This document shows, piece by piece, positions 7-17,099 of a stretch of 17,099 nt of DNA. Numbering within the stretch: position 1 is the stretch's first letter; each line of letters begins with the position of its first letter. The DNA is from Treponema sp. (GTDB taxonomy: Bacteria > Spirochaetota > Spirochaetia > Treponematales > Breznakiellaceae). The notes under the pieces were generated by a model. It was given only the letters and a program-made list of their open reading frames with translations, searched no databases and was not told where the DNA came from. A program made the translations under genes and the position numbers. The DNA lies in assembly GCA_031281685.1 (NCBI GenBank), contig JAITFA010000044.1, positions 1 through 17,099 on the forward strand, in the 5' to 3' direction.

Positions 7-792
7 CTAAAGGTCTAGGTAGGAATCCGCGTAGAGAGTCTGGTTCATAATGATATCCGCTGATTTAATGGTTTCCATCATCCGTGGACTACAGGGGTTT
101 ACGATGGCGGAACTGAGGCCACACGCAATGCACATGGCAATCAGGACGGAATCCATGATGGGACGGATGTTTTTAGGCATCATGTTTGAGGCGTTGGAAA
201 GGCCGCAGACTGAGTTGAAACCCATGTCCTTAAGCTGGCGGATGAACGCGAGCATTTCGGCCTGTTTTTCCTGCATCCCCTTGATGACAAGGCACAGGGG
301 ATCAAACCACATATCCTCCGCCTCCATGCCCAGAGACAGCCCGCGTTCCAGCATCTCCTGACAAAAAGCCATGCGTTCCTCGTTATCCTTTGGAACCCCA
401 TGTTTGGAGCAGAGAGAAATGATGATGGCGTCATTAGCCGCCGCGAGATCAATGTTGGAAATACGATCCCCCGCGTCCGCGGAATTGATGAGGGGCTTAC
501 CCCGTGAGCGGTTATAAACAGAAATACCCGCCTCGATAGCCTTTTTATTGGCTGTATCCAGAGAAAGAGGGATATTATCACAGTGTTCCTGAAGCAACGT
601 TACCGCCCATTTCATCAGCTCTTCCCCGTCTTTTTCCGCGGGACCGATATTCACGTCCAGATACGAAGCTCCGGCGGCAATCTGTTCCTTTGCCCGCTGA
701 AGAATGGGCGCGGGATCACGAGCCGCCATTGCGGCGCGGATTGCCGGTGAGATACAGTGGATACGTTCTCCGATAACAACAAATTTACCCAT
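7..792 (-). CDS. acsE: 5-methyltetrahydrofolate:corrinoid/iron-sulfur protein methyltransferase
   Basis: This cytoplasmic enzyme moves the methyl group of methyl-H4folate to the cobalt of the corrinoid Fe-S protein AcsCD, linking the two branches of the Wood-Ljungdahl pathway. The 261-residue product is almost the length of the Moorella enzyme (262) and reads as one DHPS-type TIM barrel: GERI start at 8-11, LDVN at 45-48, SLD at 77-79, INSAD at 102-106, FDPL at 163-166 and GLSN at 197-200. By family comparison D79, N103, D164 and N200 are the pterin-binding positions. The start has a strong AGGAGG 7 bases upstream. It is the last visible gene of the cooS-cooC-acsB-acsD-acsC-acsE operon, 30 bp after acsC. 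Only six bases remain beyond its TAG stop, so a terminator or further operon genes cannot be seen. Confidence 0.95.
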   Translation of the reverse strand: MGKFVVIGERIHCISPAIRAAMAARDPAPILQRAKEQIAAGASYLDVNIGPAEKDGEELMKWAVTLLQEHCDNIPLSLDTANKKAIEAGISVYNRSRGKPLINSADAGDRISNIDLAAANDAIIISLCSKHGVPKDNEERMAFCQEMLERGLSLGMEAEDMWFDPLCLVIKGMQEKQAEMLAFIRQLKDMGFNSVCGLSNASNMMPKNIRPIMDSVLIAMCIACGLSSAIVNPCSPRMMETIKSADIIMNQTLYADSYLDL

Positions 793-822
793 ACTGATTC
801 CTCCTATAATAGTGATGTCTAT

Positions 823-2154
823 TCAGACTTTGAGTTCTTTGAGAAATTTAACCACACCCACCGCTTCATTGGGTGCGACGAGGATTCTCCAGCCCGGCAA
901 ACTTTCCTCCAGTTCGCCCTTGAGTACGGCGATTTTGCCGGGGATGATCAGATTGCGGTTCTTTATCTTGCCGTCAATGTTCTGTTCCTTAAAGAAGCGC
1001 GACAGGGAGCTGGCGGACAGCTTGCCCGCAGCCCAGGCAGTGAGTACCGAATAGCCGCCAGCATCTGAAATGAGCAGATTCACCGGCACCCCGGAACGTT
1101 CCAGTTCCCCGGAAACGATGAAATAGGTCAGGGCGAAATCCACCGTGGTAGCGCAGATGGCGTTTTCATCAGCGCCGTTGATGGGATAGATACCGGGTTC
1201 GACTTTCATGGGTTTTTGGGGATCGGTGAAGATATTTTGCCGGAGTCCGTAAAGAGGCAGCGCCTGAGCGTAGTCCATGGCGTCCAGAACGATGATGGAG
1301 CCGTACTTCATCGTGAAGAGCGTGGCCAGGGCAAGCTGGGCTGTTTTATCTTCCGGGGCGAGTTTTGCCGCGTTTACCAGAACGGGATAGCCAAAACTGC
1401 GATCCCCGTCTTTGAGGCTTGCCCGCCTGATCTGCACCGTATTGGCAAAGGCGTCCTTTACTGAAGCGCTTCCTGCGTCGATGATAAGGTTTTTGTTTCC
1501 CAGACCTTCCAGAGCCTTAACCGTATCGTAGATGGCGTCAAGATTCACTCCGGTAACGCCCAAGACAACTCCGGCTTTGGCTGCAATGGCGCAGAACTCT
1601 TTATAGTTGGATTCATCAGCGCCATTGAGAATGGGCTTTGCGTCTTTGGTAAGCGCAAGCGCGGCAGCGGCGGCTTCCGCGTCATTCACCTCCAGAATAA
1701 GGGTACGTCCCGTGTTGTGGGCTTTTTGGACTGTGGCTAAGAAAGCGTCCTTGTCTCCTTTGTATTCCACGTTGAGGAGTTCCACATACATGCGCTCGCC
1801 TATGCGTTCATAGTCCACTTTGAGAAGCTCCGGCAGTTTTTTATCAATGCTGTCGGAACAGACGCTTACGGCATAGAGGGTCTTTGAAACAAAGGTTTTG
1901 TCATGCCGGAAGAGTACCGTTTCTCCGCCCAGGGAGTGTTCACCTTTCCCCGCGCCTATTTTGATACTCTTCATGGGCGGCGCTGTTGCTTCGCCCAGTA
2001 TTGCCAAGGCTTCCGCAGACAGATGGGGACATTTTTCCAGCGGGAGGCTGCCTTGAGCCACTTTCATGGAAAAAGCCATGCAGGTGGGGTTTCCACATTT
2101 TTTACAATTTGTTCTTGGGGTCAGCTTGAATATATCCAATCCTTTAAGGGCCAT
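823..2154 (-). CDS. acsC: Corrinoid iron-sulfur protein, large subunit
   Basis: Large (gamma) subunit of the corrinoid Fe-S protein. It carries the methyl group as methyl-Co(III) from AcsE to cluster A of acetyl-CoA synthase. The 443-residue product begins with a [4Fe-4S] motif at C17, C20, C25 and C42 (CX2CX4CX16C), the low-potential cluster that reactivates oxidised cobalamin. A TIM-barrel middle follows, and the C-terminal part (about 325-443) contains SDAGGYSVLTAWAAGKLS, consistent with the family's cobalamin-binding domain. The ATG has AAGGAG 5 bases upstream, and the gap from the acsD stop is only 15 bp, so the two subunits are probably translated together. No truncation or missing cysteine is seen. 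Confidence 0.96.
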   Translation of the reverse strand: MALKGLDIFKLTPRTNCKKCGNPTCMAFSMKVAQGSLPLEKCPHLSAEALAILGEATAPPMKSIKIGAGKGEHSLGGETVLFRHDKTFVSKTLYAVSVCSDSIDKKLPELLKVDYERIGERMYVELLNVEYKGDKDAFLATVQKAHNTGRTLILEVNDAEAAAAALALTKDAKPILNGADESNYKEFCAIAAKAGVVLGVTGVNLDAIYDTVKALEGLGNKNLIIDAGSASVKDAFANTVQIRRASLKDGDRSFGYPVLVNAAKLAPEDKTAQLALATLFTMKYGSIIVLDAMDYAQALPLYGLRQNIFTDPQKPMKVEPGIYPINGADENAICATTVDFALTYFIVSGELERSGVPVNLLISDAGGYSVLTAWAAGKLSASSLSRFFKEQNIDGKIKNRNLIIPGKIAVLKGELEESLPGWRILVAPNEAVGVVKFLKELKV

Positions 2155-2169
2155 GTTTACTCCTTTTGA

Positions 2170-3111
2170 TCACATCAAGTCAGATATTAATTTTGAGACC
2201 ACTGCCACGGAAGCGGGATGCCGCAAGATTACCGCATTGGAACCTGCTGCCAGGGAAGCCACAGCAGTGGAAATTTCCATATTGACGCCGCGCTGCTCCA
2301 CTGGTCCCCAGTCAGGGAAATCCTCTTCGCTCACCACGGATTCCTTGACTGACCAGGCTTCCTGGGCTATTGGGCTAATGATGGGCATCTGAAGCATGGT
2401 ATCGTTCTGGGCGAGTGCCGCGCCTTTGACCCGTTCTATGGTGGAGGCGACATACTCAAACCCATAGCCAGCGGCGGCGGAACCGAGGTTCATCACCACG
2501 TTTTCCCCGGATACTCCTATTTGGGAAATGAGTACGTTTAACTGCTTCGCCAGATTAATATCCACCGAGGATTCAGCGCCTATCTTTTGTCCGTAAGCCT
2601 GAACTGCGGCAACGGCGATGGACTTATAGTTGTCCTCTTTTGCGGACATGAGCAGTACGTTTTTTCCCTGGAGGGCTTCGGCAATCTTCGGCAGGAGTTC
2701 CTTGTCCTTCTCGGCGTTGCCACTACCTCTGATTACCAGTGGCAGACAGACCTTTTCGGCCACTGCTTTACAGAGGGCTACCGAATCCTCAATAGAGGCA
2801 TTGCCTCCATTAGGGTCAGCGCTGTCGAGGACTAGACTGATGAAGCTTACTCCGGGCAGGGTGCAGGCGCGACCTGCGGCATCGACGACACTTTCCGCGC
2901 CAGCGTAAAAGCTGGCAATGCCGGGTAACTGCCTGTCGGGTCCCATGTCCGAGATTTCAAGACCTACCCGAGGAGGGTTCTTGATGGATCCATCGAAGCT
3001 ATACAATGGAAGCAGGTTTTCACCGCCGAGGGTAAGGGCTGTATCGCCTGTACCGATTACCACTTCTTTTATGGCGGCGGAAAATTTTTGTGGGACTTGC
3101 TTAAAGGGCAT
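2170..3111 (-). CDS. acsD: Corrinoid iron-sulfur protein, small subunit
   Basis: Small (delta) subunit of the corrinoid Fe-S protein, the partner of AcsC. In the known complex its TIM barrel supports the corrinoid held by the large subunit. The 313-residue product has the family's N-terminal block TALTLGGENLLPLYSFDG (about residues 24-41), followed by the GLEISDMGPD segment. It has no cysteine cluster of its own, as expected. The start is supported by GAGGAG 6 bases upstream. The gene follows acsB after a 51-bp gap that contains a GC-rich hairpin, the longest gap inside the operon, and precedes acsC by 15 bp. Confidence 0.95.
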   Translation of the reverse strand: MPFKQVPQKFSAAIKEVVIGTGDTALTLGGENLLPLYSFDGSIKNPPRVGLEISDMGPDRQLPGIASFYAGAESVVDAAGRACTLPGVSFISLVLDSADPNGGNASIEDSVALCKAVAEKVCLPLVIRGSGNAEKDKELLPKIAEALQGKNVLLMSAKEDNYKSIAVAAVQAYGQKIGAESSVDINLAKQLNVLISQIGVSGENVVMNLGSAAAGYGFEYVASTIERVKGAALAQNDTMLQMPIISPIAQEAWSVKESVVSEEDFPDWGPVEQRGVNMEISTAVASLAAGSNAVILRHPASVAVVSKLISDLM

Positions 3112-3132
3112 AACAAACTCCTCTCTCTTATT

Positions 3133-3155
3133 TCCGGGCTACTAGCACACCCGGA
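3133..3155 (-). promoter_or_regulatory. Intercistronic hairpin between acsB and acsD
   Basis: In the 51-bp gap a perfect 6-bp GC-rich stem (TCCGGG/CCCGGA) encloses an 11-base loop. No T-run follows, so it is not a standard intrinsic terminator. A plausible role is RNA processing or transcript stabilisation that sets the AcsB to AcsCD ratio. The hairpin is seen; the role is inferred. Confidence 0.4.
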
Positions 3156-3162
3156 TACACTT

Positions 3163-5292
3163 CTAAATCAAAGGCTCCATGCTCAGGACCGGATGGTTCT
3201 TCTCACTCAGATAGGTGGCAAGGGTTTCCACATCCTCGGCAATGGTCTCATCGGCGATGAGGTCGGTAAAATTCTCCAGCCCGTAGAGTTCCTGTGCGGT
3301 TTTATTGAGCCTTGGATAAACCAGTTCCTTCAACGCCTTGGGCATCCACACGATCCGAGCGGAACCACCGTCGGCCTTCATGAATTTCTTGGAAGCAATA
3401 AAATGCTTGCCGTGTCCCATGAACCCGGGAGTCTGCACTCCTCCACCAGTCATGGAGGCCATTTCGGAGAAGGTCATGCCCAAAGGAGTCATGCCCGTGT
3501 GTTCCCGGTTCACGATAACCACCCCGCCGGTCATAGGCTCAATACCGCAGATGCACTCAAAGCAACCGCAACTAGTCATGGGGTCTTGCATGATCGAATA
3601 GAGGGATACCTGTTCCAAGGAACCGTGGGAACCCTGTTTAACCGCCTCGTTCACGTCTTCCCATATCCCAACATTTTCATCTATCACCCGTTCTTTGGTA
3701 ACCACTTGGCAGGGACCGTTGGGGTCAAGCTCATTGGTGGCCTTTGCGTCAAGCCAAGAGACAGCGCCGCAAAGGCCGAGTCGTTCCGGGGTAACGATGC
3801 AGACGTGGGCAGGAGAGAAGGACTGACAGAGGATGCAGTTATAGAATATGGAAACATTTTCATCAGTCAGGGATACGAGCCGGGCATCACGGGCATCATA
3901 TACCTTATTCGCCGCAACCCGAAGTTCCTTGAGCTGTTCGGGTATGGTATATATCTTCACCTGGCATTTATCCACCACACTTTCATAATCGTTTTTTACC
4001 TTTGCGTAGAGTACTTCGCCGATGTGTTTCGCCCTGAAACCCGCCTCAAAAGCGGTTTTGCTCACCCGTATACGGATAAGATCCCGCTGACCTGTATGCA
4101 TGACACCTTCGACACAGTTGAGGAAGTTATGGAATCGGCGTTCAAAAACAGACTCAAAGTCGGACTGCATGTTTTTGCCCGCCACCTCAACAATATAACC
4201 CAGGGCGAAGCGGCTGCCCGGTTTCACGGAATCAATATCCGGGCCAATGAGTTCTATGGAATGATCTTCTATCTCGCTGCTTTCCCGTGTCTGCACAAGC
4301 TCAAAGCAATCCATCCGGGAACCGTCAATGTCTACCTGCATATCGTTCCGGCGGATGATTTCCCCCTCAAAAGCAGTGGAGAAAGCGACGGGAATATCGA
4401 TCTTCGTTACTTTAATCTTAATATCCCTAGCTTCAAGGGAAGTCTCGATAAAGTCATGGGAATTTTCCTGAATGATGAGACTTTTGGGAACCCGCCACAT
4501 ATCCTTGGTATCATTGGTAATCACCGGGAAGCCCATGGCGATAGCTCCAGCGCCAGCGCCGACCACAATATCAGTTACCGGATCAAAGGCATTAACAAAA
4601 GCCCGGATACGCTGAAAGGTATACTGGTCAAGTTCTTCACGGTCTCCAGGCTGAACAGCGCCGAAGATCATGGCTGCCCGGTTTACAAAGGATATGATAT
4701 GGGACACACACCAGATATCAGGCCCCACCGGGACAACCCGAACTGGGAATCCCATGTTCAGATTCATCCGTTTAGCCTGATCGATAATACCACCGATGAG
4801 GAAGACAAAGATCGCCCGTGACTGATAGCCCTTGATAAGCTCCACCGCCTCCTTGTCCGAAGGAGCGGGACCAATGATAACCACAAAACCCGGAAGGTCT
4901 CCGGTAACCAAGGGAACCCCCAATTCCCGAACTTCCGCGTCAGAGAGATGCCCGTGGTAGTCAGTCCCGTACGGTTCAGGGCTACGGACGTATTTGCATG
5001 CCTCAATAACTTCAGCGGCAAGGAAGGTTCCAAACCCGGACTTAAAGACATCCGCCAGACGGTTCCCGTGAGGCATCCAAGCTTTTACTTCGGGGAAAGC
5101 CGCTTTGAGGTCTCCCAGAGTGATAATTTTTTTTGCGAGATATGCTAAGTGATTGGCCAAAAAATAACCCGTATTCGGCATATTGAGTGGGGCGGATTCA
5201 CCTAAGTCCGCCACAGTATTGTTCAGGGTTTCTTCGGCGAGCGCATACATTTCGTCAACCCCATCAAAAACGCGATTGAAAAGCAATTTCAT
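3163..5292 (-). CDS. acsB: Acetyl-CoA synthase (CODH/ACS alpha subunit)
   Basis: Condenses CO, the methyl group from AcsCD and CoA into acetyl-CoA at the Ni-Ni-[4Fe-4S] cluster A. The 709-residue product is 20 shorter than the Moorella protein (729), apparently at the N-terminus. All cluster A ligands are present at a constant offset of 20: C486, C489, C498 and C508 for the cubane side, and C575-G-C577 for the distal nickel, with C489 bridging to the proximal nickel. F492 in the CQSF motif corresponds to the conserved Phe512 near the active site. The N-terminal CO-tunnel domain (about 1-290), middle domain and cluster A domain (about 480-709) are all intact. The start lies 5 bp past the cooC stop, with GGAGGAGG inside the end of cooC 10 bases upstream. 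A long open frame on the opposite strand is a coding shadow. Confidence 0.97.
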   Translation of the reverse strand: MKLLFNRVFDGVDEMYALAEETLNNTVADLGESAPLNMPNTGYFLANHLAYLAKKIITLGDLKAAFPEVKAWMPHGNRLADVFKSGFGTFLAAEVIEACKYVRSPEPYGTDYHGHLSDAEVRELGVPLVTGDLPGFVVIIGPAPSDKEAVELIKGYQSRAIFVFLIGGIIDQAKRMNLNMGFPVRVVPVGPDIWCVSHIISFVNRAAMIFGAVQPGDREELDQYTFQRIRAFVNAFDPVTDIVVGAGAGAIAMGFPVITNDTKDMWRVPKSLIIQENSHDFIETSLEARDIKIKVTKIDIPVAFSTAFEGEIIRRNDMQVDIDGSRMDCFELVQTRESSEIEDHSIELIGPDIDSVKPGSRFALGYIVEVAGKNMQSDFESVFERRFHNFLNCVEGVMHTGQRDLIRIRVSKTAFEAGFRAKHIGEVLYAKVKNDYESVVDKCQVKIYTIPEQLKELRVAANKVYDARDARLVSLTDENVSIFYNCILCQSFSPAHVCIVTPERLGLCGAVSWLDAKATNELDPNGPCQVVTKERVIDENVGIWEDVNEAVKQGSHGSLEQVSLYSIMQDPMTSCGCFECICGIEPMTGGVVIVNREHTGMTPLGMTFSEMASMTGGGVQTPGFMGHGKHFIASKKFMKADGGSARIVWMPKALKELVYPRLNKTAQELYGLENFTDLIADETIAEDVETLATYLSEKNHPVLSMEPLI

Positions 5293-5297
5293 CGAAC

Positions 5298-6080
5298 CTA
5301 TTCCTCCTCCGACATGGAATCGATACGTTCCTTAATCTTCCGAATCTCTTCCCTGGCATCTGCGCTTGTGTCAAAGGGAGCCAAGCCCTGCCGGTCGGCA
5401 GCAACTATCCCTTCATTATAATGAATGAAACCGAGTAGCCTTTCTTCGCCGATCCGGGTTTTCAGGAATTCCTCATCCGCAATTCCCTGTACTTTGTTCG
5501 CTACCACGCTTATCTTCTGGACACCGAGGTCTGCAGCCAAGGGTTTCAGTTTGAACAAGGTCTGAACGCTCCGTTCCCCGGGCTCGACCACCACGATAAA
5601 GCGGTCAACCATACCTGCGGTTCCTCGCCCCAGATGTTCAAGCCCAGCCTCCATATCCATAATAACCACTTCATCACGGGCAATGACCAAGTGGGAAATG
5701 ACCCGTTTAAGCATCACATGCTCAGGACATACACAACCGCCCCCGCCGGTTTCTACCGTCCCCATGACAAGGAGCTTTACCCCGTGTTTCTCACGGGAAA
5801 ACCGATCCGGTATATCATCCACACGGGGGTTGATCTTAAAGAACCGTCCGTAGCCATCATTATCCGATCCGGTGCGCTCGGCGATAAGGTCCTTCATTTT
5901 AGAAATCGGGGTAATGTCCTGAAGTTCCGTTTCGGTAAAACCCAAGGCAGCCCCCAAGTTTGCATCGGGGTCTACATCCACTGCCAGAACTTTTCTTCCT
6001 TCTTCCGCATAAAGCCGGGCAAGCACAGCGGCAAGGGTCGTTTTGCCAACGCCGCCCTTTCCGGTAATGGCGATTTTCAT
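5298..6080 (-). CDS. cooC: CooC/AcsF-type nickel-insertion ATPase
   Basis: MinD/SIMIBI-class ATPase that matures nickel enzymes of this pathway; relatives load Ni into CO dehydrogenase (CooC) or acetyl-CoA synthase (AcsF). The 260-residue product has a deviant Walker A, GKGGVGKTT, at 7-15 with the signature lysine K8, a DVDPDANLG switch at 35-43, the dimer-interface metal motif C116-V-C118, and a hydrophobic Walker B-like strand ending in MDMEAGLEHLGRG at about 141-153. It lies between the two nickel enzymes it probably serves, 13 bp after cooS and 5 bp before acsB. Its start has only a weak, distant AGGA, suggesting translational coupling to cooS. Whether it serves CooS, AcsB or both cannot be told from sequence. 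Confidence 0.93.
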   Translation of the reverse strand: MKIAITGKGGVGKTTLAAVLARLYAEEGRKVLAVDVDPDANLGAALGFTETELQDITPISKMKDLIAERTGSDNDGYGRFFKINPRVDDIPDRFSREKHGVKLLVMGTVETGGGGCVCPEHVMLKRVISHLVIARDEVVIMDMEAGLEHLGRGTAGMVDRFIVVVEPGERSVQTLFKLKPLAADLGVQKISVVANKVQGIADEEFLKTRIGEERLLGFIHYNEGIVAADRQGLAPFDTSADAREEIRKIKERIDSMSEEE

Positions 6081-6093
6081 AGATTCCGATGTC

Positions 6094-8052
6094 CTATATT
6101 CCCAAAGCGGTTCGTTTTGCTTCGATACCGTTGATGATGTTTGTTACCAATTCGTGAGGGTCCTTGTTGATGATGAATCCCCCGCCAGTGATCTTCCGGG
6201 TTCCCTGGGTAATAAGTTCCATCATTTGGGAACTTCCCTTAACCTGAGGTTCTATCCCCAAGTAAACATCCAAGCCAGTGGATACCACATAATTGGCGAT
6301 AGAAACCGCCTTTTCTCTCATCCATTCCGGGGCGCAACCAAGTACCGGTATTTGGGTAATATCCACCCCCCAGTCACGGGCAATCCCGTTGGCCAAGAGC
6401 ATCATACGGCTGATGTCTACGCAGGCTCCCATGTGAAGGATGGGCGGAATGTTTACCAAATCGCAGACACGCCGTAACCCCGCACCACAGAGATACTTGG
6501 CGTCCTTTTGGAGTAGTCCCGCCTTAGTAGCGACTTGAGCGGCGCAACCTGTGGCCACGATGAGGATGTCGTTTTTCAATAGTTCCTTCATGATCTCGAA
6601 GTGAGAATAGTCCGGTCTCACCCGTGGGTTATTACAGCCCACAATAGCAACAGCCCCTCGGAGTACACCAGCTTTTATCGCATCAATCGCTGGCCGGTAG
6701 GAACCGAGTTCGTCCACGTGACTGTTGGTCACCCCATCAAGGTGTTTGATAATCTGTTCGCATGGATAACCTACAGTGGCGGTTTGCTTGTGTTCAGGGA
6801 TGAATACCCGTGAAGGCTCCCGGTTTTGATAGTTATCCACCGCCATTCTTACCAAGTCCTTGGCCTGCTCAAAGGCTGTTTCCTGCTTAAATTCCACATA
6901 AATAGAACCGGGGATACGGGCGATTGGGGAACTGGTAACAAATTTCGTATGGAAACATTCACTTAAAGGGGACAGAGACGGGAATATACACTGGACATCC
7001 ACGCACATCATCTCTACAGCGCCGGTAAGGATCGCGTTTTCCTGTTGCAGGAAGTTTCCCGCCATCCGTACTCCATGGCGCATGGCAATTTCGTTGGCAG
7101 TACAGCAAAGTCCCACCACATTGATCCCCTTGGAACCCTTGCTCCTGGAGTAATCCACCAGCTCCTTTACTTCAGCGGCAGTTACCACCATCTCAGAAAA
7201 AACAGGATCATGGCCGTGTACCACGATATTGACCATATCTTTCTCCAAGACCCCAAGATTCCCTTCGGTGTTCCATACCGTAGGGGTTCCAAAAAGGATA
7301 TCGGTGATCTCTGTACCCATCATGGAACCGCCCCAGCCGTTTGCCAGGCTGGTCCTGAGACCCTGCCGCACCAGAGCTTCGGCATCGGCGGTATTCCCCA
7401 TGTGAGTCATGTGGAGGGAGGTAACGATTTCCCGATCTATGGAGCGGGGTTCTATGCCCTGATCATGCCAAACCTTTTGCCGCGCCGGGATAGCCCGCTT
7501 AATGAAACGCTGTGTACCAGCGATCTTCCCAAATTCATGGAGCCCGGTTTCAGCAACCTCATGGGCAATATCGTAAACATTCCGGCCTTCGGTGGGAATC
7601 TCCCATTCCTTGGCTAGGCGAATAAGTTTTTGCTCGTCTCTGACACGGTAGTTTCCCTCTGGACTTGAGCTGAGAAGTACATGGAGGATTTCCCGCGCAT
7701 GGTCTGAGTGGGCTGAAGTTCCTGCCGCAATGGTTCTGAGGTAGTTTCGCCCCGCGATGGCATGGGCGTCAGCGCCGCAGATGCCTCGCGAAGCCTTGGG
7801 GGTAATCCGGCAGGGTCCCATAGAACAGTTTCTACAGCAGATGCCGTCTTCTCCGAACCTGCAATGGGGAGTCTGGTTCTTATTGCGATCCTCCCAAGTT
7901 TCCGCGCATACCGCGCAGGCGGTTTCTTTAAGTTTGGCGGTATCCGCCTCCATCTGCTCAATAGTAGTAACGTGTTCAAGGATTCTCAAAACCAAACTCC
8001 TTACATTGATATCCTTATCATAAATAATCTTAGAATTTATTCCTTGATTCAT
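6094..8052 (-). CDS. cooS: Anaerobic Ni-Fe carbon monoxide dehydrogenase catalytic subunit (AcsA/CooS)
   Basis: Homodimeric enzyme reducing CO2 to CO and passing the CO to AcsB. The 652-residue product has the N-terminal cluster block with C64 and C72 (cluster D, at the dimer interface) and C73, C76, C81 and C92 (cluster B). Expected cluster C ligands are all present: a histidine in HGHDP (279-283), C317 in CCTANE, C355 in DVQC, C473 in VGCNNP, C503 in TGCAAQ and C544 in GACVDISR. Ligand roles are by family comparison. It is the first gene of the operon and has no Shine-Dalgarno before its ATG; a TCTAAT -10-like hexamer ends 9 bases upstream, so the transcript may be nearly leaderless. The product lacks any signal peptide and is cytoplasmic. 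Confidence 0.96.
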   Translation of the reverse strand: MNQGINSKIIYDKDINVRSLVLRILEHVTTIEQMEADTAKLKETACAVCAETWEDRNKNQTPHCRFGEDGICCRNCSMGPCRITPKASRGICGADAHAIAGRNYLRTIAAGTSAHSDHAREILHVLLSSSPEGNYRVRDEQKLIRLAKEWEIPTEGRNVYDIAHEVAETGLHEFGKIAGTQRFIKRAIPARQKVWHDQGIEPRSIDREIVTSLHMTHMGNTADAEALVRQGLRTSLANGWGGSMMGTEITDILFGTPTVWNTEGNLGVLEKDMVNIVVHGHDPVFSEMVVTAAEVKELVDYSRSKGSKGINVVGLCCTANEIAMRHGVRMAGNFLQQENAILTGAVEMMCVDVQCIFPSLSPLSECFHTKFVTSSPIARIPGSIYVEFKQETAFEQAKDLVRMAVDNYQNREPSRVFIPEHKQTATVGYPCEQIIKHLDGVTNSHVDELGSYRPAIDAIKAGVLRGAVAIVGCNNPRVRPDYSHFEIMKELLKNDILIVATGCAAQVATKAGLLQKDAKYLCGAGLRRVCDLVNIPPILHMGACVDISRMMLLANGIARDWGVDITQIPVLGCAPEWMREKAVSIANYVVSTGLDVYLGIEPQVKGSSQMMELITQGTRKITGGGFIINKDPHELVTNIINGIEAKRTALGI

Positions 8053-8061
8053 TTGCTAAGA

Positions 8062-8097
8062 ATTAGAACTATGTTGTCAAGTTTCCCGATAAACTTG
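8062..8097 (-). promoter_or_regulatory. Predicted cooS operon promoter with operator-like inverted repeat
   Basis: The -10-like TCTAAT (8062-8067, minus strand; 5 of 6 consensus bases) has no recognisable -35 at 17-bp spacing. The six bases at that position (8085-8090) are exactly the loop of a perfect 7-bp inverted repeat, CAAGTTT-N6-AAACTTG (8078-8097). A dimeric regulator bound there would sit on the -35 site of the acs operon and could also influence the divergent gene. A consensus TTGACA is also present on the minus strand (8075-8080), but it lies only 7 bases from TCTAAT. The repeat is certain; the regulatory role is inferred. Confidence 0.45.
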
Positions 8098-8116
8098 TTT
8101 TCCAACCCCGGATTGC

Positions 8117-8145
8117 TTGACAGGATAAAAAAGGGGATTGATCAT
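8117..8145 (+). promoter_or_regulatory. Predicted promoter of the second methyltransferase gene
   Basis: A perfect -35 TTGACA (8117-8122), a 17-bp spacer and a -10-like GATCAT (8140-8145; 4 of 6) point rightwards. Transcription would begin near 8152, giving a leader of about a dozen bases that contains GAGGT (8155-8159), 5 bases before the ATG at 8165. Confidence 0.45.
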
Positions 8146-8164
8146 ACCCTCAATGAGGTAACCG

Positions 8165-8974
8165 ATGATTATTATAGGTGAAAAAATTAACGGATCTATC
8201 CCGCCTGTCGCTAAAGCAATTGCGGAGAAAGACGCGAAGTACATCCGGCGTTTGGCAAAAAAGCAGTCTCTGGCAAAGGCTCATTTCCTTGACGTATGTG
8301 CCTCGGTTGCGCCGGACGTGGAATACGAAACGCTCAAATGGCTTATTGACGTGGTTCAGGAAGTAACAGACACTCCTATTTCCATTGACAGTCCCAATGC
8401 CAAGGTGTTCGCGCAGCTAATCCCTCTTTGTAAGCAACCGGGAATCGTCAATTCCGTATCTATGGAAGGGGACAAGATTGAACGGGTGTTTCCCGTGATC
8501 GCTGATACGACATGGAACTGTGTGGCTCTCCTCTGCGATGATACGGGGATTCCGGGAACTGCGGAGAAGCGGCTTGAGGTGTTCGATGCTATTCTGAAGA
8601 AAGCCGCAGCTTACCGAATCTCTCCAGACCGGCTGTTTATCGATCCAGTGGTCGAAATGCTGGCTTCGTCGGAAAGCGGAATCGACAAAATTATTGCCAC
8701 CATCAAGAAGGTAAAGGAAATCTGTCCCGATGTTCATATCACCAGCGGAGCTAGCAATATTTCCTATCAACTGCCCCTCCGAAAATTTATCAACCGTAGT
8801 TTCATCATCCTCTGCATGGGCGCGGGAATGGACAGCGCCATCGTCGATCCGCTTAACACGGATATGCTGGGCCTTATCTATGCGGCAGAGGCGCTTTTGG
8901 GCCGGGACGAAATGTGCATTGAGTACATCACTGCTTTCAGGGAAGGGCTTTTAGGAGCGCCGGTAGGGGCATAA
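8165..8974 (+). CDS. Methyltetrahydrofolate-dependent corrinoid methyltransferase, DHPS fold (AcsE/MtgA/MtvA-like)
   Basis: A 269-residue DHPS-fold methyltransferase of the family that transfers methyl groups between H4folate and a corrinoid protein. The motifs IIIGEKING (2-10), ISID (72-75), VNSVS (95-99), FIDPVV (158-163) and SGASNIS (194-200) keep the pterin-site residues D75, N96, D160 and N198. It differs clearly from the operon's own acsE, so it is a paralogue rather than a recent copy. MtgA or MtvA-type enzymes of this family put methyl groups from glycine betaine or aryl methyl ethers onto H4folate; a second AcsE or a free-standing role is also possible. No corrinoid protein or demethylase lies next to it. 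GAGGT 5 bases upstream supports the start. It is divergent from cooS and the only gene left of oriC that reads toward the origin. The family is confident; the partner and substrate are unknown. Confidence 0.8.
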   Translation: MIIIGEKINGSIPPVAKAIAEKDAKYIRRLAKKQSLAKAHFLDVCASVAPDVEYETLKWLIDVVQEVTDTPISIDSPNAKVFAQLIPLCKQPGIVNSVSMEGDKIERVFPVIADTTWNCVALLCDDTGIPGTAEKRLEVFDAILKKAAAYRISPDRLFIDPVVEMLASSESGIDKIIATIKKVKEICPDVHITSGASNISYQLPLRKFINRSFIILCMGAGMDSAIVDPLNTDMLGLIYAAEALLGRDEMCIEYITAFREGLLGAPVGA

Positions 8975-11728: not shown

Positions 11729-13732
<2,004 letters not shown>

Positions 13733-13734
13733 TT

Positions 13735-15174
13735 ATGACCAACGGTGATTACCAAATGTACTGGCAGGAAGCCATGCGGCAGATTCGGGAAGAGGTAGGA
13801 GAGAACGAGTTCTCCTTCTGGTTCAGCCAAATGGAATACATAGGCGCGACTGATACTGAAATCGGACTTAGTTTTCCGTCCTCGTTCTATCGGGATATGG
13901 TGAAATCACGATATAAGACTCGCATTGAAAACAAGTTAAAAACGATTATGGGCAAGGCTGTGTCCCTCTCCTTTGAAATCATGACACGCCCTCCGGTACG
14001 GACGCCCCCGGTGTCAGACACAATGCGGATGCCTCTGGCACCAGATACCCACAGCGTTCCCTCAGCGCCATCCACCATTGAGCGCCGTCCGCCGCAGCTT
14101 ATGCCGCAGATAGCGGCGGTAAAGCAACCTCATTCCCAACTGCGTGGCGACTATACCTTTGAGCGATATGTTATCGGGGAGAACAACAACTTCGCAGCCA
14201 ACGCCGCCAAAGCCATCAGTCTTAACCCCGGAACCACCAAGTACAATCCGTTCCTTATATATGGAGGCGTTGGGCTGGGCAAAACCCACCTCATGCAGGC
14301 CATCGGCAACTACATACACTGGCATAACGACTGCAAGATCATCTACATAAGCGCGGAAAGTTTCCTAAACGAGTTTGTTGACTGTATCCAGAAAAACTCC
14401 ATGCCGGCATTCAGGAACAAGTACCGCTTCATCGACGTGCTTCTCATTGATGACATTCAGTTTTTACAGGACAAAGCTGGTATCCAGAACGAACTTTTTT
14501 ATATATTCAATGCGCTTTACGATACGAAAAAGCAAATCGTCTTCACCTGCGACCGTCCAGTCTCCGAACTGAAGCAGTTCAGCGACCGGCTCCGCTCCCG
14601 CGTTGGCCTAGGTCTTACCGTTGATCTCCAGCCGCCTAACTATGAAACTCGTTACGCCATCCTCAAAGCCAAGCTACAGGAACATTCCGTGGTTATCCCT
14701 GAAGAAGTGATCAGCCTGGTCGCCCAAAGCGTCGCCACTAACATTAGAGACCTGGAAGGAGCGCTCACCACCCTTGTCGGTTATGCGGAACTGGTAGGCA
14801 AGCCCATCACCATAGCCGTAGCGCGTCAGCAACTCAAGGGCGTTCTCGCCTCGCCCGCGCCAGTATCCACCCCACACGCGCCCGTAGAGCTGGTTATCCA
14901 AGCCGTGTCCGCCTGCTTCTCCTTTTCGCCGGACGAGTTGCGCGGCGCCAAACGAAGCCGTAAAATCGTGGAAGCCCGCCAGATCGCTATGTACCTCACC
15001 AAGGAGATCACCGAGTATACCAACACCGAGATAGGCCAAATCTTTGGCGGTAGAGAACACAGCACGGTTATGCATGCCTGCCAGCGCGTTGAGGAACAAC
15101 TCCGCTCCAACCCCCAACTGGAAGCCTCTATCGAAAAGATCAAAACGGATATCGCCATGAATGTGGCAGGATAA
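13735..15174 (+). CDS. dnaA: Chromosomal replication initiator protein DnaA
   Basis: AAA+ ATPase that binds DnaA boxes and opens oriC. The 479-residue product has an N-terminal interaction domain I (about 1-80), a proline-rich variable linker (about 85-135), AAA+ domain III with Walker A GGVGLGKT (177-184) and Walker B LLIDD (236-240), and DNA-binding domain IV (about 380-479). The domain IV signature reads GGREHSTVMHA (438-448), where the usual form is GGRDHTTV. The D-to-E and T-to-S changes fall in residues that contact box bases in E. coli, and the boxes downstream are non-canonical. The start follows a close promoter without a ribosome-binding site. oriC lies directly downstream, then dnaN and recF. 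Confidence 0.97.
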   Translation: MTNGDYQMYWQEAMRQIREEVGENEFSFWFSQMEYIGATDTEIGLSFPSSFYRDMVKSRYKTRIENKLKTIMGKAVSLSFEIMTRPPVRTPPVSDTMRMPLAPDTHSVPSAPSTIERRPPQLMPQIAAVKQPHSQLRGDYTFERYVIGENNNFAANAAKAISLNPGTTKYNPFLIYGGVGLGKTHLMQAIGNYIHWHNDCKIIYISAESFLNEFVDCIQKNSMPAFRNKYRFIDVLLIDDIQFLQDKAGIQNELFYIFNALYDTKKQIVFTCDRPVSELKQFSDRLRSRVGLGLTVDLQPPNYETRYAILKAKLQEHSVVIPEEVISLVAQSVATNIRDLEGALTTLVGYAELVGKPITIAVARQQLKGVLASPAPVSTPHAPVELVIQAVSACFSFSPDELRGAKRSRKIVEARQIAMYLTKEITEYTNTEIGQIFGGREHSTVMHACQRVEEQLRSNPQLEASIEKIKTDIAMNVAG

Positions 15175-15196
15175 GCATGAGCTTGTCCCGAACCAA

Positions 15197-15354
15197 TGTG
15201 CATAGCTTGTTCATAACCTGTGTATAGAGTGTGCATAACCTGTTCATAACTAGGAAAAAATGTGCATAGAATGTTCATAACTTGTGCATAGAGCGTGCAT
15301 AACTCTGTGCATAAGCCCTGTCGCGTTCATACCGTGTGCATAGAATGTTCATAA
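15197..15354 (-). repeat. DnaA-box array with 11-bp spacing
   Basis: Thirteen 9-mers of the form TGTKCATAR, or one or two changes from it, start at 15197, 15208, 15219, 15230, 15241, 15261, 15272, 15283, 15294, 15306, 15324, 15335 and 15346. Read on the minus strand they are TTATGCACA or TTATGAACA variants, against the E. coli consensus TTATCCACA. Steps are 11 bp except for 20, 12 and 18, giving runs of 5, 5 and 3 boxes on one helix face. Box types GCACA and GAACA mostly alternate. A 22-bp two-box unit is repeated exactly at 15261-15282 and 15335-15356. Confidence 0.9.
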
Positions 15355-15383
15355 CTTTGAGTTATGAACATTCTATGCACACG
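15333..15383. repeat. 24-bp perfect inverted repeat in oriC
   Basis: Arms 15333-15356 and 15360-15383 are perfectly complementary, with a 3-base loop (TTG, 15357-15359). Each arm contains two DnaA boxes 11 bp apart, so four boxes face one another head to head. It could form a strong hairpin in single-stranded DNA or RNA, or a cruciform under negative supercoiling. No T-run follows, so it is not a typical terminator for dnaA. Confidence 0.92.
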
Positions 15384-15436
15384 ACAATTGTTTATAGAAT
15401 AAAGAATTAACCGAGTTATGCACATTTGAACGCTCC

Positions 15437-15482
15437 CTACTACTACTACTAAATTTATATATATAAATATTAGTAATAGTAG
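15437..15482. other. DnaA-trios and AT-rich DNA unwinding element
   Basis: CTACTACTACTACTA (15437-15451) is five DnaA-trios (3'-GAT-5' on the minus strand) running away from the box at 15416-15424, the layout described for the Bacillus subtilis basal unwinding system. It is followed by the perfect 16-bp palindrome ATTTATATATATAAAT (15453-15468). On the far side TAGTAATAGTAG (15471-15482) gives four trios on the plus strand, in mirror orientation. No DnaA box flanks the right-hand set. Confidence 0.75.
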
Positions 15483-15495
15483 AGGCGCGATTTAG

Positions 15496-15529
15496 TGTCA
15501 TTGACAAACCACGAAAAGACAGCGAACAT
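15496..15529 (+). promoter_or_regulatory. Possible dnaN promoter with palindrome over the -35
   Basis: A perfect TTGACA (15501-15506) overlaps the 11-bp palindrome TGTCA-T-TGACA (15496-15506). At 17-bp spacing the -10 position reads GAACAT (15524-15529), only 3 of 6, so the promoter is weak or activator-dependent. dnaN may also be read through from dnaA. Confidence 0.3.
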
Positions 15530-15574
15530 GAACGCCGTTAATCAAGCAACACTAATAAACCAGAAGGAGAAAAA

Positions 15575-16684
15575 ATGAAGTTTACCTGTGAACGAAGTAT
15601 GTTGCTCAAAGAGATCGCTTTTGCTCAGGAGATCATCGCGTCAAAGATCGCGGGATCGATCCTGTCCTACATTGGCCTTGAGGCCGAGCAGGACACGCTC
15701 CATATTCAGGCGACCGATGGCCTGAAAGTCAACTTCAGGACCAGCGTCCCGGTCATTGTCATTGAGTCCGGAACCGCTTCCGTATTTGGCGACAAGTTTT
15801 TAGGGATACTCAACTCCATTCCCGAAGGGGAACTTGAGTTTGAGCAGGCCGAAGGGAAAACCACGATTCGGCCAACATTCAAGAAGATCAACTTCCAGCT
15901 CAAGAGCATGGCGTCAGATGAGTTCCCGGAACTTCCTATACCAAACGAGGAGGACTTTTTCACATTCCCGACGCGTGACATCAAAGAGATGATCCTGCAA
16001 ACCGTCTTCGCCGTTTCTGGGGATGAGACGCGCTACAACATGAACGGTGTTTGTTTTGAGAAGAAAGACGGCAAGCTCATCATGGCAGCGACGGACGGAC
16101 GACGCCTCGCCTTCATCGAGAAAACGCCCGAAGGCGCTCTACCGGACTTCCCCAGCGTCATCATCCCGCCCAAGCTGCTCAACATCATTACCAGACACGC
16201 TGGTGATGAAGGTGAAATCGCTATCGCCGTTAGTGGCCAGCACATCTTTGTCCGCTTTGGCTCCTACGACCTGTCCTCCAAGCTCATTGAAGGCCAGTTC
16301 CCCAACTACCAGCGGGTGATCCCGGAAAACCAAAGCTTCGTCTTCTCGGTTAACCGCATGGAGATGCTTGACGCTCTCAAGCGCGTATCCATCTTCGCTG
16401 AACAGAAAGTCGGTCGCGTTCATGTGGGTATTACCCACTCGCTCGTCTCCGTCTACACCGATGAAAGCGACATCGGCACCGCGAAAGAAGAGATCGCCGC
16501 TCGGTACGAGGGTGATGAAGTTGCCATCGCCTTGAACTACCACTACATTGAAGAACCACTCAAAGTTATGAGTAATAACGAGGTCAGTTTTCACTTCACC
16601 GACCCGCTGAAAGCACTCTCCATCAAGTCTGAGCCAGAACAGAGCTTTATCCACGTCATCATGCCCATGCAGCAGCAGTCGTGA
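15575..16684 (+). CDS. dnaN: DNA polymerase III sliding clamp, beta subunit
   Basis: Ring-shaped processivity clamp that holds DNA polymerase III on DNA. The 369-residue product has the usual three-fold clamp length and begins MKFTCERSMLLKEIAFAQEI, typical of the family. The middle domain contains NGVCFEK and ATDGRRLAFIEK (about 152-182), and the C-terminus ends in the conserved VIMPMQ segment that forms part of the partner-binding cleft. Unlike dnaA and gyrB it has a clear ribosome-binding site, AAGGAG (15564-15569), 5 bases before the ATG. Its stop overlaps the recF start by 4 bases. Confidence 0.97.
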   Translation: MKFTCERSMLLKEIAFAQEIIASKIAGSILSYIGLEAEQDTLHIQATDGLKVNFRTSVPVIVIESGTASVFGDKFLGILNSIPEGELEFEQAEGKTTIRPTFKKINFQLKSMASDEFPELPIPNEEDFFTFPTRDIKEMILQTVFAVSGDETRYNMNGVCFEKKDGKLIMAATDGRRLAFIEKTPEGALPDFPSVIIPPKLLNIITRHAGDEGEIAIAVSGQHIFVRFGSYDLSSKLIEGQFPNYQRVIPENQSFVFSVNRMEMLDALKRVSIFAEQKVGRVHVGITHSLVSVYTDESDIGTAKEEIAARYEGDEVAIALNYHYIEEPLKVMSNNEVSFHFTDPLKALSIKSEPEQSFIHVIMPMQQQS

Positions 16685-17099
16685 TCTTTAAGAGCCTGGG
16701 TGTCAGCGGTTTTAGGAACCTTGCCGATGCCGAGGTCAACACCACGGGGAAGGATATCTTCCTCGTGGGGGAGAACGGCCAAGGCAAGACCAACTTCCTC
16801 GAAGCCCTTTACTTCTGTTCCTATGCCTCGTCATTTCGGGGAGCGCCGGATAAAGAACTCGTGCGTGGCGGCGAAAGAAGCTGTTCAGTCCACGCACATT
16901 TCGCCGCTTCCCGGTATGACGAGGTGATCATCAAGATCGACAACGGACGCAAAAGCGTGTTCCTCGACGCCAAGCGCCTGGACGACCGCCGCGACCTGCT
17001 GTCCGTGGTTCCCTGTGTGGTCTTCTGCCATGAGGACATGGACTTCGTGGCCGGAACCCCGGAACAGCGCCGCTGGTTCTTTGACCAGAGTCAGAGCCT
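16681..17099 (+). CDS. recF: DNA replication and repair protein RecF (5' part, runs off the window)
   Basis: ABC-type ATPase that helps load RecA at single-strand gaps during recombinational repair. The first 139 codons are present. The frame opens with FKSLGVSGFRNL and has Walker A GENGQGKTN at 30-38 followed by FLEALYF, the RecF/SMC pattern. Further on, FCHEDMDFVAGTPEQRRWFFD matches the family block that continues into the missing half. The start is GTG at 16681, sharing the bases GTGA with the dnaN stop. No ATG start lies in this frame upstream and no Shine-Dalgarno is seen, so translation is probably coupled to dnaN. The remainder lies beyond the window edge, so this is not a pseudogene call. 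Confidence 0.95.
   Translation, partial: MIFKSLGVSGFRNLADAEVNTTGKDIFLVGENGQGKTNFLEALYFCSYASSFRGAPDKELVRGGERSCSVHAHFAASRYDEVIIKIDNGRKSVFLDAKRLDDRRDLLSVVPCVVFCHEDMDFVAGTPEQRRWFFDQSQS

Follow-up and report, generated by a model that had tools for sequence, protein, structure and literature searches.

Among the described origin systems, the closest to the element considered here is the basal unwinding system (BUS) of Bacillus subtilis, in which, according to the available text of the source, DnaA passes from a DnaA box to the DnaA-trios, stretches the strand that carries them and opens the duplex, a helicase then being delivered to that strand where the DnaA filament ends (PMC10201434). The box is required in cis and in one orientation, and a scaffold with wild-type trios and mutated boxes was not opened in vitro, as far as the accessible portion of the paper goes (PMC6669920). 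The accessible parts of two further papers give the trio-reading residues of B. subtilis DnaA as N187, I190, I193, R202 and E228 (PMC10721633), and the size of the opening as about 40 unpaired bases, with 26 nt per helicase-loader complex (PMC13326638). By which means two helicases reach the two strands of an origin is named as an open question in the available text of three of these works (PMC10201434, PMC10721633, PMC13326638); for the complementary strand in B. subtilis, loading by DnaD together with the DRE is proposed in the portion of the source at hand (PMC10201434).

The window, i.e. the whole analysed stretch of 17,099 nucleotides from a Treponema sp. genome (G000, 55.8% complete), carries gyrA and gyrB on the minus strand, followed on the plus strand by dnaA and, after a gap of 400 bp, by dnaN and the beginning of recF (Table 1); dnaA and dnaN were named by NCBIfam, and gyrA, gyrB and recF were identified by reading of the translations. 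A cluster of DnaA boxes lies beside dnaA and dnaN, as is characteristic of a chromosomal oriC. The GC skew over 13000-17099 is mostly negative on either side of the origin, with no clear switch and just 1.6 kb to the right, and a search of 15000-15700 against Rfam gave nothing at the gathering scores. Beside gyrA/gyrB/dnaA, a gene cluster of the acetyl-CoA pathway occupies positions 7-8974 of the window, together with an ATPase gene (5298-6080) that matched no family over its cut-off and that we take to be CooC-like. Acetogenic treponemes, and Treponema isolates like those compared below, come from termite guts.

Table 1. Positions of the genes and origin features in the window.
Feature	Position	Strand	Remarks
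Methyltransferase	7-792	-	acetyl-CoA pathway cluster
Gamma	823-2154	-	acetyl-CoA pathway cluster
Delta	2170-3111	-	acetyl-CoA pathway cluster
Alpha/beta	3163-5292	-	acetyl-CoA pathway cluster
CODH catalytic subunit	6094-8052	-	acetyl-CoA pathway cluster
Second methyltransferase-like gene	8165-8974	+	acetyl-CoA pathway cluster
dnaA, initiator gene	13735..15174	+	TIGR00362 over cut-off
DnaA-box array	15197..15381		14 boxes at up to one mismatch, 12 on -, 2 on +
Inverted repeat, perfect, 24 bp	15333-15356/15360-15383		3-nt loop; box orientation flips here
DnaA box adjoining the trios	15416-15424	+	TTATGCACA; one mismatch to TTATCCACA
Spacer	15425-15436	+	TTTGAACGCTCC; 12 nt, GC-rich step at its end
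Left DnaA-trios	15437-15451	-	five CTA units, 3'-GAT-5' on the - strand
Core	15452-15470		AATTTATATATATAAATAT; 19 bp, AT-only
Palindrome inside the core	15453-15468		ATTTATATATATAAAT; 16 bp
Right, mirrored DnaA-trios	15471-15482	+	TAGTAATAGTAG; four units, read 3'->5' toward the left
Right flank	15483..15530	+	largely conserved in G001 and G002; TTGACA at 15501-15506
dnaN	15575..16684	+	TIGR00663 over cut-off; start 92 nt past the right trios

Between dnaA and dnaN the element follows the order of box, spacer, left trios, AT-only core and right trios, and the parts described in the first-pass annotation (five left trios, a GC-rich step, a palindrome and a second trio set, spanning 46 bp from trio to trio) were all found in place. 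The same annotation had named a Bacillus-type basal unwinding system, which fits the left half at this dnaA-dnaN origin: the box has no more than two mismatches to TTATCCACA, the spacer falls within 0-16 bp, and at least three NAN trios stand on the correct strand. The left half resembles the B. subtilis BUS in the orientation of the box, the 12-nt spacer, the five GAT trios and the AT-rich DNA beyond them, and is covered by the published BUS search rules, whose spacer peak lies at 10-13 bp in the accessible part of the source (PMC8287927). Unlike that BUS, the window has, past the AT core, further trios on the other strand that mirror the first set.

The box at 15416, which is the sole one beside the trios, had been called lone, but 14 further boxes lie within 220 bp to its left, of which it is the right-most neighbour and points at the left trios. 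Thus, 15 boxes at up to one mismatch were counted between 15197 and 15424, in the dnaA-dnaN gap, and 27 across the window, compared with a mean of 10.4 and a largest value of 20 in 200 shuffles; a spacing of 11 bp, on the minus strand, is common in the array. At the place of the inverted repeat (15333-15383), G001 and G002, two genomes of the same genus, bear additional boxes.

The right half has the plus-strand units 3'-GAT GAT AAT GAT-5', i.e. four NAN trios (at least three being sought) on the opposite strand in mirror polarity. An inward box at up to two mismatches was not found near them, the best inward match in the 48 nt to the right having three mismatches over four box variants, which agrees with the first-pass view that only the left trio set has a box nearby; of the two inward boxes of a full mirrored BUS, one on each side, the window accordingly has the left and lacks the right. 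In eight related elements the best inward right match had two or three mismatches at shifting positions, values that are given without a chance level.

When the 60 nt to the right of the left trios were shuffled 20000 times with dinucleotides preserved, 70 shuffles contained a run of four or more TAR units, and 1244 contained the looser mirrored 8-mer (either TARTAGTA or TAGTARTA). The latter frequency speaks for the right set as a neutral by-product, either of an origin sequence rich in AT and prone to repeats or of the leader of dnaN, a reading that we regard as unlikely in view of the comparisons given below. The right set is only moderately significant within this single window, and its main weight is its conservation in relatives. 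The stricter pattern YACTACTA-N4..34-TAGTARTAG occurs at a single site of the source genome (three overlapping rows), at 55.8% completeness, and this site is the element itself. A promoter or terminator as the explanation of the element was rejected, none being predicted at it: the scans gave a single promoter-like site (15243-15272), a count below the mean of the shuffles, and, on the minus strand, a single terminator-like site (15519-15538). It is our guess that the TTGACA of the right flank is the -35 of dnaN; the promoter scan did not report it.

Four genomes of the same genus were compared, two with a dnaN match and hence an assembled origin (G001 and G002) and two with neither a dnaN match nor the mirrored pattern (G003 and G004). 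The mirrored element was present in both genomes with an assembled origin (2/2), so that the absence of the right set in close relatives, which the first-pass annotation had proposed to look for among related origins, was not seen. In G000, G001 and G002, respectively, there are 5, 6 and 6 left units, 4, 6 and 5 right units, and cores of 19, 17 and 17 nt, the right-side changes consisting of whole trios or TAG/TAA exchanges with the trio phase kept; the retention of the phase as the number of units changes stands against a neutral by-product.

The same comparison bears on the proposal that what the symmetry serves is not DnaA but a folded structure, a hairpin or a cruciform, formed by the DNA or by the leader RNA of dnaN. 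In all three genomes every right TAA, counted outward from the core, faces a left CTA without compensation, and two of the three have unequal numbers of units on the two sides; the unmatched TAG/TAA changes, with the phase kept, indicate a trio code rather than base pairing. As DNA, each strand does form a better fold than all 200 shuffles (z -4.5 and -4.3). Across 107 mirrored elements with at least three boxes, covariation was seen at the innermost trio pair (p = 0.0004), the pooled value being p = 0.034, and self-complementarity was slightly higher in the cores than in their shuffles (0.593 vs 0.546, 70 of 104 cores exceeding their own mean). However, pairs 2, 3 and 4 have no covariation (p = 0.59; 0.09, in the opposite sense; 0.26), and the innermost pair borders the AT core, which may bias both sides alike. 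Base pairing thus explains less than the trio code, and we consider a folding role very unlikely.

In the family, the pattern TACTAYTA-N4..34-TARTAGTA was matched in 26 of 195 genomes, and of the 26 loci listed 13 lie beside DnaA boxes and 13 away from them; the former comprise ten (G000, G001, G002, G027, G159, G160, G029, G088, G154 and G107) and a weak three (G067, G073 and G076), and G062 has a further match to the mirrored pattern beside a box. The 8-mer pair alone was therefore rejected as a specific marker, since 13 of the 26 listed loci lie off box clusters and a backward control also matches many genomes. When the left-half pattern was used instead, 35 deduplicated family loci were obtained (one of them, L313, unlike an origin, and another, L316, truncated), with the mirrored 8-mer in 10, the reversed word in 0, the complement in 0 and the same-strand word in 2. 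In genus g9, the loci L286, L287 and L289 have right-hand units with a one-base slip, seen by eye and kept outside the counts.

The mirrored word was found in none of the 17 family loci in which dnaN starts within 60 nt of the left trios and in 10 of the other 18 (Fisher p = 3e-4, kinship ignored), which means that the right set is not generally needed; its absence in many relatives is also what a by-product would lead one to expect. Over all six survey groups described below, the association with the dnaN distance was no longer clear (4/47 vs 19/91, p = 0.09). A DnaN tree of 45 rows requires three changes of the mirror trait, or two without G012, so that much of the sharing within the family is inheritance, and many independent gains of the mirror within it were rejected. 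In genera g8, g9 and g26 (L005, L024, L028, L285-L289, L303-L305), the left trios had no visible dnaN as a neighbour, and the origin seemingly lies away from that gene. The dnaN genes of G027 (L004) and G025 (L020) have one internal stop each (TGA and TAG, respectively), perhaps from assembly errors.

Beyond the family, a global scan of a GTDB-species collection for trios, core, mirrored trios and a box, with the mirrored word alone and no control words, gave at least 117 stretches in which the mirrored layout adjoins a box. By a rule under which a locus is origin-like if at least three boxes fall within some 1.2 kb, or if it contains dnaA or dnaN, 95 of the 117 matches listed were origin-like and 22 were not, and 72 of the 117 had dnaA or dnaN in the locus. 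Among the matches listed, the 95 origin-like loci belong to 19 named phyla, with 10 loci without a phylum name, led by Bacillota (16), Spirochaetota (14), Cyanobacteriota (10) and Acidobacteriota (9), the locus names being taken from the deposited records, of which many are metagenome bins. The mirrored set, which the first-pass annotation had considered unusual, thus has the same layout at origin-like loci in many phyla, and this recurrence in 19 named phyla among the loci listed is a further point against a by-product.

A control survey was keyed on the left half only (TTWTNCACA-N2..22-CTACTAYTA) and covered 79 genomes from the phylum of L065, 325 from that of the window, 99 from that of L076, 149 from that of L101, 200 from that of L123 and 195 from the family, of which 14, 25, 11, 46, 6 and 37, respectively, matched. 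Up to 60 nt beyond the left trios of the 138 deduplicated loci, the mirrored word was found in 23, the reversed in 2, the complement in 1 and the same-strand word in 3; after removal of six loci of genomes that had been used as centres because of their mirror, the counts for the remaining 132 were 17, 2, 1 and 3. The mirrored word exceeds all three control words beside the left trios in the whole survey, contrary to what a by-product would give, and does so also in the 62 loci with at least three boxes (12 mirrored, 1 reversed, 1 complement, 2 same-strand). Among words of equal composition, TAGTAGTA was within the top 3 of 560 and TAGTAGT was the first of 210, and the words that beat or tie TAGTAGTA resemble the dnaN start. 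Outside the family, by subtraction, 98 loci had the mirrored word in 8, the reversed in 2, the complement in 1 and the same-strand word in 1, an excess that is modest and to that extent favours the by-product; both reversed words, the complement word and the same-strand word were all in Bacillota, where the mirror occurred in 1 of 47 surveyed loci, namely the centre genome. The survey rates are no estimate for all bacteria, since the phyla were chosen because of known hits in the global scan, and the loci are related by descent.

An exact inward box within 34 nt past the right trios was found in 14 of the 95 listed origin-like loci, compared with 2 for the outward and 0 for the reversed box; at up to one mismatch the same search gave 19, 4 and 5, respectively, in counts where the 'left' box of the scan may be the weaker side in some loci. 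That the inward right-hand boxes exceed both controls again argues against a by-product. The clear double modules, with the order box-trios-core-trios-box, are those of Ktedonobacter racemifer (L103), Dictyobacter arantiisoli (L151), Ktedonobacteria bacterium brp13 (L170), a Poribacteria bin (L080), a Dependentiae bin (L110) and a Comamonas bin (L123). They share with the window two trio sets that mirror each other on either side of an AT-rich core, at a cluster of boxes, and differ from it in having an exact inward right box. In the literature searched, to the extent of its accessible text and with subscription papers, preprints and supplements outside the search, no mirrored or opposite-strand trio pair was found; as far as these searches reach, the double modules with a box on both sides are unpublished.

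From these sequence comparisons, the element appears to be a real mirrored variant of the BUS, shared with the closest relatives and present at many origins, and a function may be proposed for its mirrored half from the arrangement. We put at roughly 0.5 the probability that the element is the duplex-unwinding core of oriC, whose right set would hold the second strand and load a second helicase. With support from the left array, DnaA bound to the box at 15416 would load onto the left trios of the minus strand and, as the match to the published BUS suggests, open the duplex through the AT core; the right trios, once single-stranded, would present to DnaA, on the plus strand, the motif of the left set with its polarity mirrored. 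Binding there would result in one DnaA filament per strand, the two facing each other across the core, and the mirror symmetry may then direct a second helicase to the other strand, with both helicases leaving outward. The right set probably acts after the left and not independently, because it has no right-hand box; opening from both sides is doubtful at this origin because of the three mismatches in the best inward right match and the requirement for a box in B. subtilis. A second DnaA site used after opening from the left would therefore fit the window better than opening from both sides.

The main rival would be strand capture of the kind known from Thermotoga maritima or E. coli, by which DnaA bound to the array reaches over, holds the freed plus strand at the right TAG repeats and stabilises the bubble, with no second filament or special role for a helicase. 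The window resembles the T. maritima oriC, with its extended trio and three TAG repeats, in having TAG repeats in the unwinding element, and according to the available text DnaA on the T. maritima box array binds single-stranded DNA through these repeats, which are essential for opening (PMC10316083). The large box array on the left and the right side without an acceptable box also agree with such a capture. However, the T. maritima repeats share a single strand, with a TTATT motif on one side and the annotated trios on the other, in the portion of the paper at hand (PMC10316083), whereas the trios of the window face each other across two strands, and capture from the left alone predicts neither the mirrored polarity nor the inward right box in 14 of the 95 listed loci. 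Strand capture is accordingly held to be rather improbable.

As regards the loading of a second helicase by the mirrored set, the DRE of B. subtilis is comparable in that it is a signal on the strand opposite to the left trios, proposed in the accessible text to bring the second helicase (PMC10201434). It differs in that the DRE is read by DnaD and lies opposite the trios, whereas the right set of the window lies past the core, in a genome without a match to the DnaD domain. In the window DnaA, the equivalents of the trio-reading residues are N212, V215, I218, R227 and E253 (alignment to 8btg, positions mapped by hand), i.e. N, I, R and E are kept and V replaces I190. The DnaD domain (TIGR01446) was not matched in G000, at its 55.8% completeness, or in 10 other genomes of the family, both controls, B. 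subtilis and L. lactis, being matched; it was found in 24 of 79 genomes, namely in 23 of 35 Bacillota without the mirror (one below the cut-off) and in Ktedonobacter. Of a first list of 19 genomes, 16 gave a DciA match, the genome of the window among them, as did 37 of the 64 in a second, the lists for the DciA and DnaD searches being hand-picked. DciA or DnaD as a predictor of the mirror was rejected, since loader and phylum are confounded, 10 of the 35 Bacillota have DciA without the mirror, and Ktedonobacter, which bears a double module, is contrary in having a DnaD-domain match and no DciA match. The presence of DciA and the lack of a DnaD-domain match in the genome of the window fit a DnaD-free route, with no causal claim.

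The mirrored BUS may, more broadly, be a widespread and undescribed origin module, in which two DnaA filaments on the mirrored trio sets, in some lineages with a DnaA box at each end, place two helicases on the two strands, an extension that we offer tentatively, as possible rather than probable. For the proposed role of the right set at the origin of the window, the retention of this set in the genus, the frequency of the mirrored word of 17/132 against 2, 1 and 3 for the controls, the 95 origin-like loci listed, the right-hand boxes, the trio-reading residues of DnaA and the presence of DciA with no DnaD-domain match count in favour, as does the 46-bp length when set beside the B. subtilis opening (about 40 unpaired bases; 26 nt for each helicase-loader complex). 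The lack of a right-hand box in the window, the family loci in which dnaN is close and the mirror absent, the modest excess outside the family, the 1/47 in Bacillota, the inheritance within the family, and the bacteria that have DciA and often lack the mirror count against it.

In the available literature, the trios so far described mark one strand; if the mirrored trios mark the other, the question of the second helicase becomes testable with short oligonucleotide scaffolds, for which the double-box origins of Ktedonobacteria and Poribacteria are ready-made test objects. If true, the mirrored arrangement would be an answer to second-helicase loading that is encoded in the origin sequence, above all in bacteria without DnaD.
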